A stretch of 64,000 nt of DNA from an uncultured Verrucomicrobiota bacterium (GTDB lineage Bacteria > Verrucomicrobiota > Verrucomicrobiia > Opitutales > Opitutaceae): the NCBI GenBank assembly GCA_913058185.1, contig CAJXQX010000006.1:1-64000 (forward strand). The letters run 5' to 3'. The notes under the pieces were generated by a model. The model saw only the letters and a list, made by a program, of their open reading frames with translations. It had not been told where the DNA came from and did not search any database. Both the position numbers and the translations under genes were made by a program. Shown here in pieces: positions 31,329-42,816 of this stretch (its first letter is position 1; every line of letters starts with the position of its first letter).

Positions 31329-31702
31329 TCATGGCAAGGACTCTTGATGACGGTCTCCGATGAAAAAGAACGCCTCGATGCGGATCAAATCCGAGGAGAG
31401 GCCGCTGTAGATGACCGTCTTAACCTTTGAATGACTTTCTTGCAGCGCGGCTAGAATCTCAATCCCCCCGCGGTCGGGTAGCACCAAATCAAGGAGCAGG
31501 ATCTCGGCCTTGGTTTTCGCCAAACCAGACACCCCTCCTTCCGCGACGTCAGAGGTCCCAACCACCTCAAAATCAGCCGAGCTGTTAAATAGATCCGTGA
31601 GCAGCTCCAAAAAGCGGGGTGATCAATCGACGATAAATATGCGACGGGGAGCGCCATGCGCTCTGGTAGCACGGTTGGAGAGGATGCTTTGGTGATTTCC
31701 AT
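31329..31702 (-). pseudogene. Response-regulator receiver domain remnant
   Basis: RRIFIVD-[frame disruption]-LELLTDLFNSS...AEILLLDLVLPDRGGIEILAAL; coding alternates between two frames and no output domain follows. Confidence 0.75.
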
Positions 31703-31808: not shown

Positions 31809-32882
31809 TCAACTCGGTGCGCAGTCTCGGATAAACCGAGGGCAGAGATCGGTTGCCCGCATGGATTGATGAAACACCGGGGTCGTCGAGCCTGAGATTG
31901 GAGGCACGATCCATGTCCAGTCCGCTGAAACGGAGCGATTGCTCTGCGCTTCGTGGTCACAAAATTTTCCAAATTCCTTCGCCGCCGTGTGATGGTCCAC
32001 GATCTTGACTCCAGCGGCTCGAAAAGAATGCAGCACCGCGAAGTTCAGCTCCACGATAGCCCGATCCCGCCAGAGGCTCTCCTCGTGAGTGGCATCCAAT
32101 CCCATGGCCTTCGCCACCGCTGGCAGTTGATTGTAACGGTGAGGATCCCCCAGATTACGGGCTCCGATCTCCGTGCCCATATACCAGCCATTAAATGGGG
32201 CTAAGGGGAAATGCTGAGTGGCCGTTTGGAACGCCACATCACATACGACGGGCACCGGATACCACTTGAGACCAAGCTCCGAAATTTCTGGAACTTTCGG
32301 ATGGGTGATATGGACCTCCGGAACGAGCTCGGGAGGAACCTGACGCCATCGGTTTCGACCGGTCTCATCAGTGAAGAGTAAGGGGAGGAGATCAAATGCC
32401 GAGCGGCGGCGCGGGGGAGACCAGCCCCAATCAAGCGCTCGCTGCGTGGTTGCTATATTTTGGGGATCCCCCAACACCTCCCCGGATGCCGCTCGGTAGC
32501 CGGCGTAGCCGCACAACTGTTGATTCCAAATTCGTAATGATCCGATTTCCGATGCGTCAGGGAAAACTGAGATGATCGGACGCACGCGACCGCCGTTGAA
32601 GGCATCCCGCAGGTGGACCCAGAGCTGGTCTATGATCTGCTCGGCGCGGTGGCAATGCCGCTGATCCCGAACCACCAAACTCGACCAATAAAGACGCCCG
32701 ATACACCGGGAGTGATTGCGCCAAGCCTCGCGGGCGTCGCGCTCCAGATCAGTGGGTCTGCTCGGACTCCCGCCCGAGTGTGATTCACCGCCGGAGGAAT
32801 CGGCGATGAATCCTTGGTTAAGGTTGCTCGCGGCAAGCCGAGGGCGAAGTGGGCGATCTGCAAACGGACAATGGCCTGACAT
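31809..32882 (-). CDS. nos: Nitric oxide synthase oxygenase domain protein (bacterial NOS)
   Basis: 357 aa; AWRNHSRCIGRLYWSSLVVRDQR (heme Cys region), RIWNQQLCGYAGYR, APFNGWYMGTEIGARNLGDPHRYN, DHHTAAKEF, ADWTWIVPPISGSTTPVFHQSM closely match NOS oxygenase motifs. Confidence 0.93.
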   Translation of the reverse strand: MSGHCPFADRPLRPRLAASNLNQGFIADSSGGESHSGGSPSRPTDLERDAREAWRNHSRCIGRLYWSSLVVRDQRHCHRAEQIIDQLWVHLRDAFNGGRVRPIISVFPDASEIGSLRIWNQQLCGYAGYRAASGEVLGDPQNIATTQRALDWGWSPPRRRSAFDLLPLLFTDETGRNRWRQVPPELVPEVHITHPKVPEISELGLKWYPVPVVCDVAFQTATQHFPLAPFNGWYMGTEIGARNLGDPHRYNQLPAVAKAMGLDATHEESLWRDRAIVELNFAVLHSFRAAGVKIVDHHTAAKEFGKFCDHEAQSNRSVSADWTWIVPPISGSTTPVFHQSMRATDLCPRFIRDCAPS

Positions 32883-32894
32883 AATAAACCTAGT

Positions 32895-33587
32895 TTAAGG
32901 CCCAAACACTCTCCATCTTAGTCGCCCGAAATCGGCAACGGACTGCCCAAAACGCACCGTTCCCGGCGCCCTCGACGGGGCGCAAGAACGCCATCGAGTG
33001 TTTAAGAATCGAGCGGATCCTTGCTGCACGACCTGTGCCGGCTGGGCTTCGCCCGCTTGTGCCCTCAACCCGATTTCATCGCCCCAACCGACCAAATCCC
33101 CGGAAGGGATTGATGCTTGGTTTCTGGGGGCGGGCCGCTTTTCTTGTCGAGAGGTCGCCTGAAGTATCGCAGAACTCGACACATCGGAATAGCCGTTTTC
33201 TCTGAGTTTAGTTTCCATGAGTTCCAATACTTGGGTTACCATCGCGCTCGGCTCTGCATCGAGTGCTACCAGCCCGCCCGTTTTGCGATCTAGAATTTGG
33301 TGACACGTTGGCTTGTGAGCCGCTAATTCAAAGAACCGGGCGTTTTCATGAACCAACATGACGTGAACCAATTTAGCCTGCGTCAGGCGAGTGAGGATTC
33401 GATGAACGGTGCTCAAATCGTAGCCGAGGGGTTTTAGTGCTTCGAATATCCCCCGGGGGCTCATTGGACTCTTGGCAGCGTGAAGCAGACGCAGGAGCGA
33501 GCGCACCGCTTTGGTCGATCTTAAGCCACGCTCAGAAAGGACATGAGCGATCCATTCATCGAGGGCGTGCGATTTAGCGGGTATCAT
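32895..33587 (-). CDS. Fur-family-like transcriptional regulator with long C-terminal extension
   Basis: RSTKAVRSLLRLLHAAKSPMSPRGIFEALKPLGYDLSTVHRILTRLTQAKLVH matches the Fur winged-helix pattern; HKPTCHQI follows; last ~90 aa unassigned. Confidence 0.72.
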   Translation of the reverse strand: MIPAKSHALDEWIAHVLSERGLRSTKAVRSLLRLLHAAKSPMSPRGIFEALKPLGYDLSTVHRILTRLTQAKLVHVMLVHENARFFELAAHKPTCHQILDRKTGGLVALDAEPSAMVTQVLELMETKLRENGYSDVSSSAILQATSRQEKRPAPRNQASIPSGDLVGWGDEIGLRAQAGEAQPAQVVQQGSARFLNTRWRSCAPSRAPGTVRFGQSVADFGRLRWRVFGP

Positions 33588-35539: not shown

Positions 35540-38020
35540 ATGCCCTCCCTTTCCGAACGACTTGGTCACATTGTGCCTGCGCCCCGTATCTTGACCGGCG
35601 CGGCTGATCGCGCAGCTTATGATTCGGATGCGCAAACGGCGTTTCGTTGTCGCGCCGCAGCGGTCATCATCCCTCAAACGACCGACGAACTGGTCGCCGT
35701 CGTGCGTTGGTGCCATGCCGAGGCGGTCTCTTTCGTGGTGCGGGGCAGCGGCACAGGACTGAGCGCAGGAGCCACCCCGATCGCAGATGGCGTGGTGATT
35801 GTGACGACCTCACTCAACCGCATCCACCGGATCGATCCCGTGCAACGGATTGCCGTGGTCGAGACCGGGGTCGTAAACGCCGATGTTTCCCAAGCGGCGG
35901 CCGAGCACGGCTTATTTTTCGCCCCCGACCCTTCGAGCCAACCCATCTGCACCATCGGGGGGAATATCGGCTTCAACGCCGGTGGGGCCCATTGCCTAAA
36001 ATACGGCATGACCTCCAATCACGTCCTCGGTCTCCGCGCGGTTCTAGCCACCGGAGAAGTCGTGAACTGGGGCAGCGAAAGCCGGGACACCATCGGCCCG
36101 GATTGGACGGGACTATTCGTCGGCAACGAAGGCCTTTTCGGCGTCGCCCTCGAAGCGACCCTGAATCTCATCCCCATTCCCGACGGCTGCCACACCGTGC
36201 TCGCGGGATTTGATTCTGCCGAAGCCGCTGGCGACGCCGTTTCAGCGATCATTGGATCCGGGCTCGTGCCGGTGGCGATCGAGCTGATGGACGATCTCAC
36301 CATCGAAGCCGTTCGTCCCGTCGTTCCCATCGACTACCCCGCCGGATGCCACGCGTTGTTGCTGGTGGAACTCGATGGACCCAGCGCCATCGTCGAAGCC
36401 GAACGCGTCCAGCTCGAGACCCTCCTGCGAGACAACAAATCGACTGGACTAGTTATCGCTCAAAACGCTCAAGAACGGGCCAACATCTGGCGCGTCCGTA
36501 AAAGCGCGTATGGGGCCTATGGTCGTTTCGCGCCCAATAATTTCGTGCAAGACAGCGTGGTTCCGCGACGTCACCTAGCCACGGCTCTTCGCCGCGTTAA
36601 TCAGATCGCAGACGAAGCTGGGTTGCGCTGCCCGACGGTCTGCCACGCGGGCGACGGAAACCTCCATCCCAACCTCCTCTACGACGGTGAACAACCCGGC
36701 GAGCTCGAACGCGCCGAGAAAGCGGCGTGGGAGATCCTGCGCATGTGTGTAGAATTGGGAGGATCAATCACCGGCGAACATGGCGTAGGACTCGAAAAAC
36801 GAGACTTTTTGCCTCTCATGTTTGGTTCGGCCGAGATGGATTTGTTTAAGCGGGTCCAAATCTGCTTCGACCCATCCGGCATCGCCAATCCCGGCAAGAT
36901 GTTCCCCGACGGCGAGCAACCCCAAACCGATTCCTCATCCAAGCTAGATCCCCGGATTCGGAAACTTGCGGTGGCCATCAAACAAGCCCCCCGGGGCCGA
37001 GCGATCGGCGGGCACACCAAATCTCCAGATCAGGAATCCGCATTGGTTGAGCATTCGATCCGCGAGCTCCGAGGAGTCATCGCCTATGAGCCGTCCGAAT
37101 TCGTGATCACCGCTTTGGCTGGCACTCCTCTCACCGAGATCATCAAAACCTTAGACCCAGCTGGCCAACAGCTCCTCTTTGATCCGATGCTGGCCGAAGC
37201 AGGTGCCACGTTAGGCGGGACGATCGCGAGTGGCCTCAACGGTCCCGGAGCCTTTGGCCAGGGGCGCATCCGCGACGCCGTGCTAGGAGTGATATTTATC
37301 AATGGTGACGGGGACGTGTTTCAAGTCGGAAGCAAAGTCGTCAAAAACGTTGCCGGATTCGATCTGCCTAAACTTTTCGTGGGCAGTCTCGGAACGCTTG
37401 GGGTCTTGGCCGAAGTCACGCTAAAAGTCGGTCCTCAAGCACCCCTAAGCGAGACGCTGCAGCTGACAGCGGCTGATTCGACGAACTTCCACCAGCTGCT
37501 GCGCTCCCTCTCCACCTTGACCACCCGTCCGATCGCCATCGACGGCAGTTTCAACGATTTGAAGATCTGGATTCGATTTGGGGCCCCCGCCGCCGCGCTG
37601 CCTTCACTCACCCAAGAGCTCATCGATCAAGGTGCGAAGCCGCTATCCCACGACGAAGCGGGATCACTGTGGGCGTCGGTCAAGGCGATCGATTGGGCAC
37701 CTAAAACGAGCACATTGATCAAGATCCCCACCGACCAACGGCGGATTGAAGACTTAATTGCTCAAATCCAGGACCGCTCACCCCAGGCCATAATCCACGT
37801 GAGCTTGGGTGGCGACGTGGTATTCGCCGCCGTCGACCCTAGTGTTGAACTCGCGCTGCGAGAAGAACTGGCGATAAAAGGTCACGCCTCGTTGGGCCTG
37901 CGTAATACCACGCGGCAAATTTATTATTCCGCCCCACCCTCACAGCTCGCCCATCAGATAAAAACGCTCCTGGATCCCGACGCGTGTTTTCCCGACCTAT
38001 TTGGCGCCGTCGGCACCTGA
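35540..38020 (+). CDS. Fused glycolate oxidase subunits GlcD-GlcE-like FAD-binding protein
   Basis: 826 aa; N-terminal GlcD-type (FVVRGSGTGLSAGA, CHAGDGNLHPNLLYD, GGSITGEHGVGLEKRDFL) followed by a second FAD-binding domain (GATLGGTIASGLNGPGAFGQGRIRDAVLG). Confidence 0.87.
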   Translation: MPSLSERLGHIVPAPRILTGAADRAAYDSDAQTAFRCRAAAVIIPQTTDELVAVVRWCHAEAVSFVVRGSGTGLSAGATPIADGVVIVTTSLNRIHRIDPVQRIAVVETGVVNADVSQAAAEHGLFFAPDPSSQPICTIGGNIGFNAGGAHCLKYGMTSNHVLGLRAVLATGEVVNWGSESRDTIGPDWTGLFVGNEGLFGVALEATLNLIPIPDGCHTVLAGFDSAEAAGDAVSAIIGSGLVPVAIELMDDLTIEAVRPVVPIDYPAGCHALLLVELDGPSAIVEAERVQLETLLRDNKSTGLVIAQNAQERANIWRVRKSAYGAYGRFAPNNFVQDSVVPRRHLATALRRVNQIADEAGLRCPTVCHAGDGNLHPNLLYDGEQPGELERAEKAAWEILRMCVELGGSITGEHGVGLEKRDFLPLMFGSAEMDLFKRVQICFDPSGIANPGKMFPDGEQPQTDSSSKLDPRIRKLAVAIKQAPRGRAIGGHTKSPDQESALVEHSIRELRGVIAYEPSEFVITALAGTPLTEIIKTLDPAGQQLLFDPMLAEAGATLGGTIASGLNGPGAFGQGRIRDAVLGVIFINGDGDVFQVGSKVVKNVAGFDLPKLFVGSLGTLGVLAEVTLKVGPQAPLSETLQLTAADSTNFHQLLRSLSTLTTRPIAIDGSFNDLKIWIRFGAPAAALPSLTQELIDQGAKPLSHDEAGSLWASVKAIDWAPKTSTLIKIPTDQRRIEDLIAQIQDRSPQAIIHVSLGGDVVFAAVDPSVELALREELAIKGHASLGLRNTTRQIYYSAPPSQLAHQIKTLLDPDACFPDLFGAVGT

Positions 38021-40758: not shown

Positions 40759-42816
40759 TATGGAGCCATTCGCAATAGCCCTCCTCGTCTCCCTCGCTGC
40801 CCTGCCCCTCTCCGCCCAAAACCGCATCGGCACCGGCCAAATCAAAGACCTCTATTTGCAAAGCTGCGCGCATGCCACGGCAAAATATGGAAGGCGGCCA
40901 AGGCAGCTCGCTAATCGATAACGTGTGGACCCACGGCGATTCCGACGAGGCTATCGCCAAAATCATCCGCGAAGGGATCGCCGACACCCCCATGATCGCG
41001 TGGCAAAGCACGCTTTCCGAGGAGCAAATCCGCGCCTTGGTAATCCTGATCCGCGAACAGAAAATAATCGCCGAAACCACTGGCATCCTCGAGAGGGTCA
41101 AACCCCTCGGCGGCGTCTTCTCCTCGGAACTTTATAATTTCAAACTAGAGAAGGTCGCCGACATCGACAACACCCTCTGGTCCATCGCATTCCTCCCCGA
41201 CCATTCGATCCTCCTCACCCAGCGCGACGGAAAGCTGTGGCACGTCGTCGACAGCAAGAAGAGCGAGATCACGGGCATCCCGACAGTTTGGATCGGCGGC
41301 CAGGGCGGCCTGCTCGAAGTCGCCCCTCATCCCGACTACACCAAAAACGGCTGGATCTACCTTTCCTTATCCGACGACCAAGGCACCCAGATCAACGGCA
41401 AGGACGCTAGCATGACCGCCGTCGTGCGCGGACGCATCAAGAACGGCCAATGGGTCGACCAGCAGGAAATCTTCCGTGCTCCCACCGATCTGTATATCGC
41501 TGCCACCGGCCATTTCGGTTCACGCTTCGTCTTCAAGGACGGCTACCTCTTCTTCTCCATCGGCGAGCGCACCAAGGCCGAGATGGCCCAGGACCTCACC
41601 AAATCCCAATGGCAAGATCCACCGCCTCTTCGACGACGGGCGCGTCCCCACCGACAACCCCTTCTACAACACGCCGGGAGCCTACAAATCCATCTGGTCC
41701 TACGGCCACCGCAATCCCCAGGGCCTCGCCCTCGATCCCCGCACCGGCGAGCTGTGGGAAACCGAGCACGGTCCTCGCGGCGGCGACGAGCTGAACATCA
41801 TCCAACCCGGAAGAAACTACGGCTGGCCCGTCATCACCTACGGCATGAACTACAACGGCAAGCCCTTGACCGATCAGACCCAAATGGAAGGCATGGAACA
41901 GCCCATCCACTACTGGCTCCCCTCCATCGCCACCGCCGGAATCGACTTCTACGAAGGCGACGCCTTCCCCAAATGGAAATACGACCTCCTCGCCACCGGC
42001 ATGTCTGCCCAAGAATTACAACGAATCACCATCGTGAACAACAAGGTCACCCACATCGAAACCATCCTCAAAAACCAAGGCCGCGTCCGCGACGTGGCCT
42101 CCGGCCCTGATGGTTTGATCTACGTGGCCCTCAACACCCGCAGTCCCGACCACGGCGAGCTCTACCGAATCGTCCCCGTCTCCGAGCCGAAATGGACCAC
42201 TCTCTTCAACGGTCAAAACCTCGATGGCTGGCGAATCCGCGACGGGGACTCCACCGTGCTCGTCGATGATGGCATGATCGTGGCAGTCTCCCAAGACCCC
42301 GTCCGCGAATCCTATCTCGTCACCGAAAAAACCTACGGCGATTTCATTCTCGAACTCGACATGAAGGTAATCGGCAAGATGAGCTCCGGAATCATGATAC
42401 GCGGCATCGATGATCCCATTAAGCCCGACGGCATCATCACCGGCTACCAAATGGAGGTCGATCAATCGCCCCGCCAGTGGACCGGCGGCATTTACGAAGA
42501 ACGAGCCCGCAAATGGCTCTACTCGCTCGAAGGCAAGACCGAAGCCCGCAAGGCCTACAAGCCGTCCCAATGGAACCACTACCGCATCGAAGCGATCGGA
42601 GATCACTTCCGTATCTGGGTGAACGGCATCCCCACCCTCAATATGGTCGACTCGAAAACGGCCGAGGGCGTCATCGGCATCCAGATACACCCCGCGCGTA
42701 AGCCCGGCGCCAGCAGCATACTTTACCTGCGCAATATCCGTATCATCGACCATAACGCCGGCGACCACATCAACGGCATCGCCATCCCCGAGTTGGTGAT
42801 CGACTCCCCCAAATAG
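40759..42816 (+). pseudogene. PQQ-dependent sugar dehydrogenase-like plus DUF1080 gene, frame-disrupted
   Basis: Signal peptide from 40759, broken CXXCH region near 40865-40895, continues in ORF 40872.. (to ~41610) then in ORF 41476..42816 frame (NPNGKIHRLFDDG...HRNPQGLALDP...; TLFNGQNLDGWRIRDGD). Confidence 0.75.

Follow-up and report, generated by a model that had tools for sequence, protein, structure and literature searches.

The window analysed here, the whole 64,000-nucleotide stretch of a contig from an uncultured bacterium of the Opitutaceae (Verrucomicrobiota), contains a gene for the oxygenase of nitric oxide synthase (NOS) that lies next to a Fur-like gene, with short ORFs on either side of the pair. 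The features concerned are given below; the residue roles are assigned by alignment and homology, and the iNOS numbers derive from an aligned iNOS row that serves for numbering only.

31329-31610, minus strand: receiver-domain fragment, 93 aa (Pfam)
31809..32882, minus strand: reductase-less NOS oxygenase gene, 357 aa
32169..32171, minus strand: codon of the substrate guanidinium ligand Glu238 (Glu371 in iNOS)
32703..32705, minus strand: codon of the heme thiolate ligand Cys60 (Cys194 in iNOS)
32859..32870, minus strand: codons of Cys5-Pro6-Phe7-Ala8, a Cys-Pro resembling heme-regulatory motifs
32895..33587, minus strand: Fur-like gene, directly upstream of the NOS gene and 12 bp from its start codon
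33912-34163, plus strand: HisKA-only ORF, 83 aa (Pfam)

Two further loci of the window were recorded in passing. An 826-aa ORF at 35540-38020 (plus strand) matches two glycolate oxidase subunits, GlcD with residues 42-453 and GlcE with residues 487-718, and so is apparently a GlcD-GlcE fusion. At 40872-42816 (plus strand), a glucose/sorbosone dehydrogenase domain is seemingly split between overlapping ORFs in different frames, and a frameshift or a sequencing error is likely there because the domain continues in the second frame.

The NOS ORF begins with ATG and runs for 357 codons without an internal stop. In the Pfam search, residues 44-352 of the protein match positions 49-356 of the 362-position NO_synthase profile (PF02898; score 412.8 bits, cutoff 22.7 bits, E 1.4e-123); this is the sole Pfam match of the ORF, and the NCBIfam models gave none. 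The top matches in a PDB sequence search were to Bacillus subtilis NOS (~1e-92), with mammalian NOSs in second place. An AlphaFold2 model derived from an input of 32 relatives has a mean pLDDT of 78.8, with residues 1-41 below 50, and the Foldseek matches listed for this model were all NOS oxygenases, the best being the B. subtilis enzyme 4d3k (TMq 0.83, 2.2 A, 44% identity). The gene, which is present in a single copy in the genome, is an intact, complete, reductase-less bacterial NOS oxygenase; a reductase domain is absent from the ORF itself, where PF02898 stands by itself in 357 aa, and from the adjoining ORFs. The original prediction, which had proposed a complete gene of this kind without a visible reductase domain and had quoted three NOS motifs, all of which are found in the ORF, is borne out. 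The loss that it had named as fatal, be it of the profile match, the heme cysteine or the catalytic glutamate, is not seen, given that PF02898 is matched and Cys60 and Glu238 are both kept.

The same prediction considered the presence of NOS in this lineage noteworthy, and that view had to be abandoned. In a survey in which many of the genomes were draft assemblies, 43 of 200 same-family genomes, one match below the Pfam cutoff included, and 18 of 390 genomes drawn from the phylum carried NOS; moreover, a 2017 report already describes NOS in Opitutae metagenome-assembled genomes (PMC5673642), so rarity is ruled out. The NOS of that report is the same enzyme in the same bacterial class (Opitutae-Tous-C4FEB, and common to other MAGs); the likeness is by description only, and the passages considered differ from the present work in containing no analysis of an N-terminal motif or of residue 260. 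Thus, NOS is patchy yet not rare in the Opitutaceae, and its presence there is not new. Phylogenetic analysis placed the window protein, on a fairly long branch (0.34, stem 0.91), among records labelled Opitutaceae, Opitutae or Puniceicoccaceae, and the Opitutaceae-type NOSs comprised a single Verrucomicrobiota group of 32 rows with an SH-aLRT support of 99. Within this group, the window protein and the NOS of the genus-mate G145 form a pair that shares a long branch, whereas the NOS of another genus-mate, G111, falls in a different part of the group; this mismatch, together with the patchy presence, suggests transfer or differential loss of the gene. Separately, a record titled Akkermansia muciniphila contains a NOS sequence identical to that of the same-family genome G098 (L003 and L115) and hence looks like a mislabelled MAG.

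The family also encodes NOS in another architecture. The self-sufficient NOS of Sorangium cellulosum shares the oxygenase domain with the window protein and carries a reductase module N-terminal to it (PMC6104048); the window protein has no such N-terminal module, which rules out a self-sufficient enzyme of the Sorangium type at this locus. By contrast, longer, fused NOS proteins that resemble the Sorangium form in the N-terminal position of the reductase part are encoded in at least three family genomes:

G091, L201:1337-4645: Fer2_BFD and FAD_binding_6 with a C-terminal NOS domain; cNMP-binding domains N-terminal
G081, L203:202-3546: Fer2_BFD and FAD_binding_6 with a C-terminal NOS domain; cNMP-binding domains N-terminal
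G181, L202:3426-5585: Fer2_BFD and FAD_binding_6 with a C-terminal NOS domain

The same fused reductase-NOS layout was observed in two other phyla as well, in a Rokubacteriota MAG (L004:3751-6954) and a Pseudomonadales MAG (L042:3691-6951).

The one feature of the window NOS that offers a lead, and a modest one on an otherwise ordinary NOS, is its extreme N-terminus. Cys5 and Pro6 are invariant in all 32 members of the clade, although they open a weakly conserved, predicted disordered tail (mean identity across the clade is 35% for the first 45 residues vs 62% for the domain). Cys-Pro occurs within the first nine residues of 32/32 clade sequences, whereas 2000 shuffles gave 0.76 such sequences on average and never more than 5, a contrast that is inflated by relatedness and is to be taken as evidence of constraint, not as a probability. 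The commonest form in the clade is CPFH (23 cases), and the window protein has CPFA. The Bacillota NOSs in the sample have no N-terminal Cys-Pro, and some actinomycetotal NOSs have a Cys-Pro in the tail.

The motif is found on other proteins of these bacteria. In the genome of the window, only two ORFs have CPFH right at the N-terminus, and both are P450-like: L168, a Pfam P450 that begins with MPCPFH, and L153, which has a matching N-terminus and no Pfam match. A scan of 100 family genomes, for exact CPFH only and with start codons picked next to the motif, yielded 7 NOS, 7 P450-like proteins and 1 KatG among the ORFs of at least 200 aa that begin with M-x(1-2)-CPFH; every long ORF truly starting in this way is therefore a heme enzyme, and given that the folds of NOS, the P450 family and KatG are unrelated to one another, the effective count is three families, not fifteen. 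In the same genomes, an eighth P450-like CPFH N-terminus is cut short, and one further match, to ThrRS, was discarded because its CPFH is internal and not an N-terminal tag. A scan with the Cys shifted by one more codon picked up nothing but short ORFs that match by chance and internal motifs, that of DnaG primase among them, and 30 loci from the wider phylum likewise gave internal or short chance matches, with no clear N-terminal tag. The KCPFH of the KatG at L169 also occurs in a solved KatG, and the nearest solved P450 homologue, 6g5o, aligns only from residue 8, past the tag. The Opitutaceae P450 family that begins with M-x-CPFH includes L154, L164, L165, L167, L168 and L170.

Cys-Pro is an established heme-regulatory motif in regulators such as Irr, in the form GCPWHD (PMC11442138). 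The Opitutaceae motif is similar in that Cys-Pro is followed by an aromatic residue and often by His, here in a predicted-disordered segment, and differs in being located at the N-terminus of heme enzymes rather than in a regulator, with heme binding here putative. By this analogy, a heme-acquisition or heme-sensing tag is suggested. In the literature covered, which was partial, we found no publications that name CPFH as a heme tag or tie a Cys-Pro motif to bacterial NOS.

An interpretation unrelated to heme is that the N-terminal Cys, with or without His, forms a zinc site at the dimer interface, like the mammalian CxxxxC. The mammalian NOS zinc site is located upstream of the oxygenase core, and so is the clade Cys, which in most members lies ~65 residues before the heme domain and is often accompanied by a His at the second position past the Pro. 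However, this His is variable and absent from the window protein, whereas Cys-Pro is invariant, and the same N-terminus is present on P450 and KatG, the folds of which are not shared with NOS; since the motif can do without the His and extends beyond NOS, we give the zinc site the lower weight and regard it as rather unlikely. The heme-tag interpretation in its full form is itself tentative: Opitutaceae might tag unrelated cytosolic heme enzymes (NOS, the P450 family and KatG) with a Cys-Pro-Phe-(His) heme-regulatory motif that would hand heme to the apo-enzyme or make its stability or activity dependent on the supply of heme, the tagged NOS being, in this genus, co-transcribed with a Fur-like regulator.

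The active site itself is conserved. Cys60 and Glu238 are invariant in 32/32 clade members and in every aligned NOS, the proximal Trp54 is present, and the alignment shows the heme-thiolate Cys, the proximal Trp, the catalytic Glu and the pterin-site Arg, Trp and Phe all in place. In iNOS numbering, the window protein keeps W188, C194, Q257, Y341, N364, W366, Y367, M368, E371, R375, R382, W455, W457 and F470, and has the bacterial Asn at position 376. Like B. subtilis NOS (PDB 4d3k, 2amo), it consists of a single oxygenase domain and shares the predicted fold, the heme Cys, the Glu, the pterin residues and the Asn at 376; apart from the 44% identity, it differs in the Cys-Pro tail, which is extra, and at two positions. 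The first of these is the NO-release gate (346), which is Val in the window protein vs Ile in B. subtilis. All bacterial NOSs are said to have the Ile gate (PMC6104048), but this universality, as judged from the larger set of sequences compared here, does not hold because Val is found in 18 of 73 mainly bacillotal and actinomycetotal sequences and in 11 of the 32 members of the Opitutaceae clade.

The second is position 260, which is Gly in the window protein and Gly, Ala or Ser throughout the Opitutaceae clade (32/32), vs Arg in 68 of the 73 bacillotal and actinomycetotal sequences. This residue is situated near the substrate carboxylate, and Gly at this place may alter the affinity for Arg; given this substitution and the fairly long branch, altered substrate affinity or kinetics of the window NOS is possible. 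The loss of this Arg in the entire clade, along with the long branch, also raises the more radical scenario of an enzyme with the NOS fold in which the substrate or product has shifted from the classic Arg-to-NO chemistry. We consider such a shift improbable: the other substrate contacts, Q257, Y341, W366, E371 and R382, are all kept, and Gly or Ala at 260 is also found in a few members of the Bacillota and Actinomycetota.

In the neighbourhood of the gene, the Fur-like protein scores 22.7 bits with PF01475, just below the cutoff of 23.1. Its core spans approximately residues 19-150; the last ~80 residues, whose codons look unlike those of the core in position-specific GC content, are probably not conserved. 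At the place of the HHxH...CxxC-type motif of Fur, inspection of the translation by eye reveals HKPTCHQILDRKTGG, so the metal-site motif looks degenerate. A homologue of this gene (L103:3-260, E 9e-8) adjoins NOS in G145, where the contig begins inside it, upstream of NOS and in the same orientation. The Fur-NOS pair is thus present on two contigs and absent at the other family loci searched; comparison of six family NOS loci, with a similarity search, showed nothing else in common, so there is no conserved NOS neighbourhood across the family. A consensus scan for a sigma-70-type promoter between Fur and NOS was negative, which is weak evidence, and a suspected repeat element in the 3' region of Fur (32885-33160) was dismissed, with neither a second genomic copy nor notable repeats. 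That the adjacent Fur-like protein controls NOS would be a guess from gene order alone. The short receiver and HisKA fragments that flank the pair are perhaps remnants of two-component genes, but that NOS itself is a relic or an inactive gene in a decaying segment is hardly credible, considering that the ORF is intact, every key residue is kept and the Fur-NOS order is common to a diverged genus-mate.

The sequence family, the predicted fold, the conserved heme, substrate and pterin residues, the Val gate and the lack of a fused reductase are direct observations on this gene, which very probably encodes a functional reductase-less bacterial NOS that borrows electrons from cellular flavoproteins. 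The enzyme would be a heme-thiolate, pterin-dependent oxygenase dimer that oxidises L-arginine first to N-hydroxy-arginine and then to citrulline and NO. The genome encodes one flavodoxin-domain protein (contig 142) and a flavoprotein with FAD_binding_1 and NAD_binding_1 domains (FAD/NAD(P); contig 7), which make a borrowed-reductase mechanism possible and are the candidate electron donors. The pterin is presumably of the folate or biopterin type; a PTPS-family protein is encoded, and it could instead be a queuosine enzyme. The flavodoxin, flavoprotein and PTPS genes are all unlinked to the NOS gene. The physiological role is probably NO-mediated stress protection or signalling.

The Opitutaceae hold both reductase-less and self-sufficient forms of NOS, and the substitution at position 260 and the Val gate are natural variants useful for the study of NOS kinetics. 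If three unrelated families of heme enzymes do share a Cys-Pro tag, the little-understood delivery of heme to bacterial heme enzymes would become testable by single point mutants.
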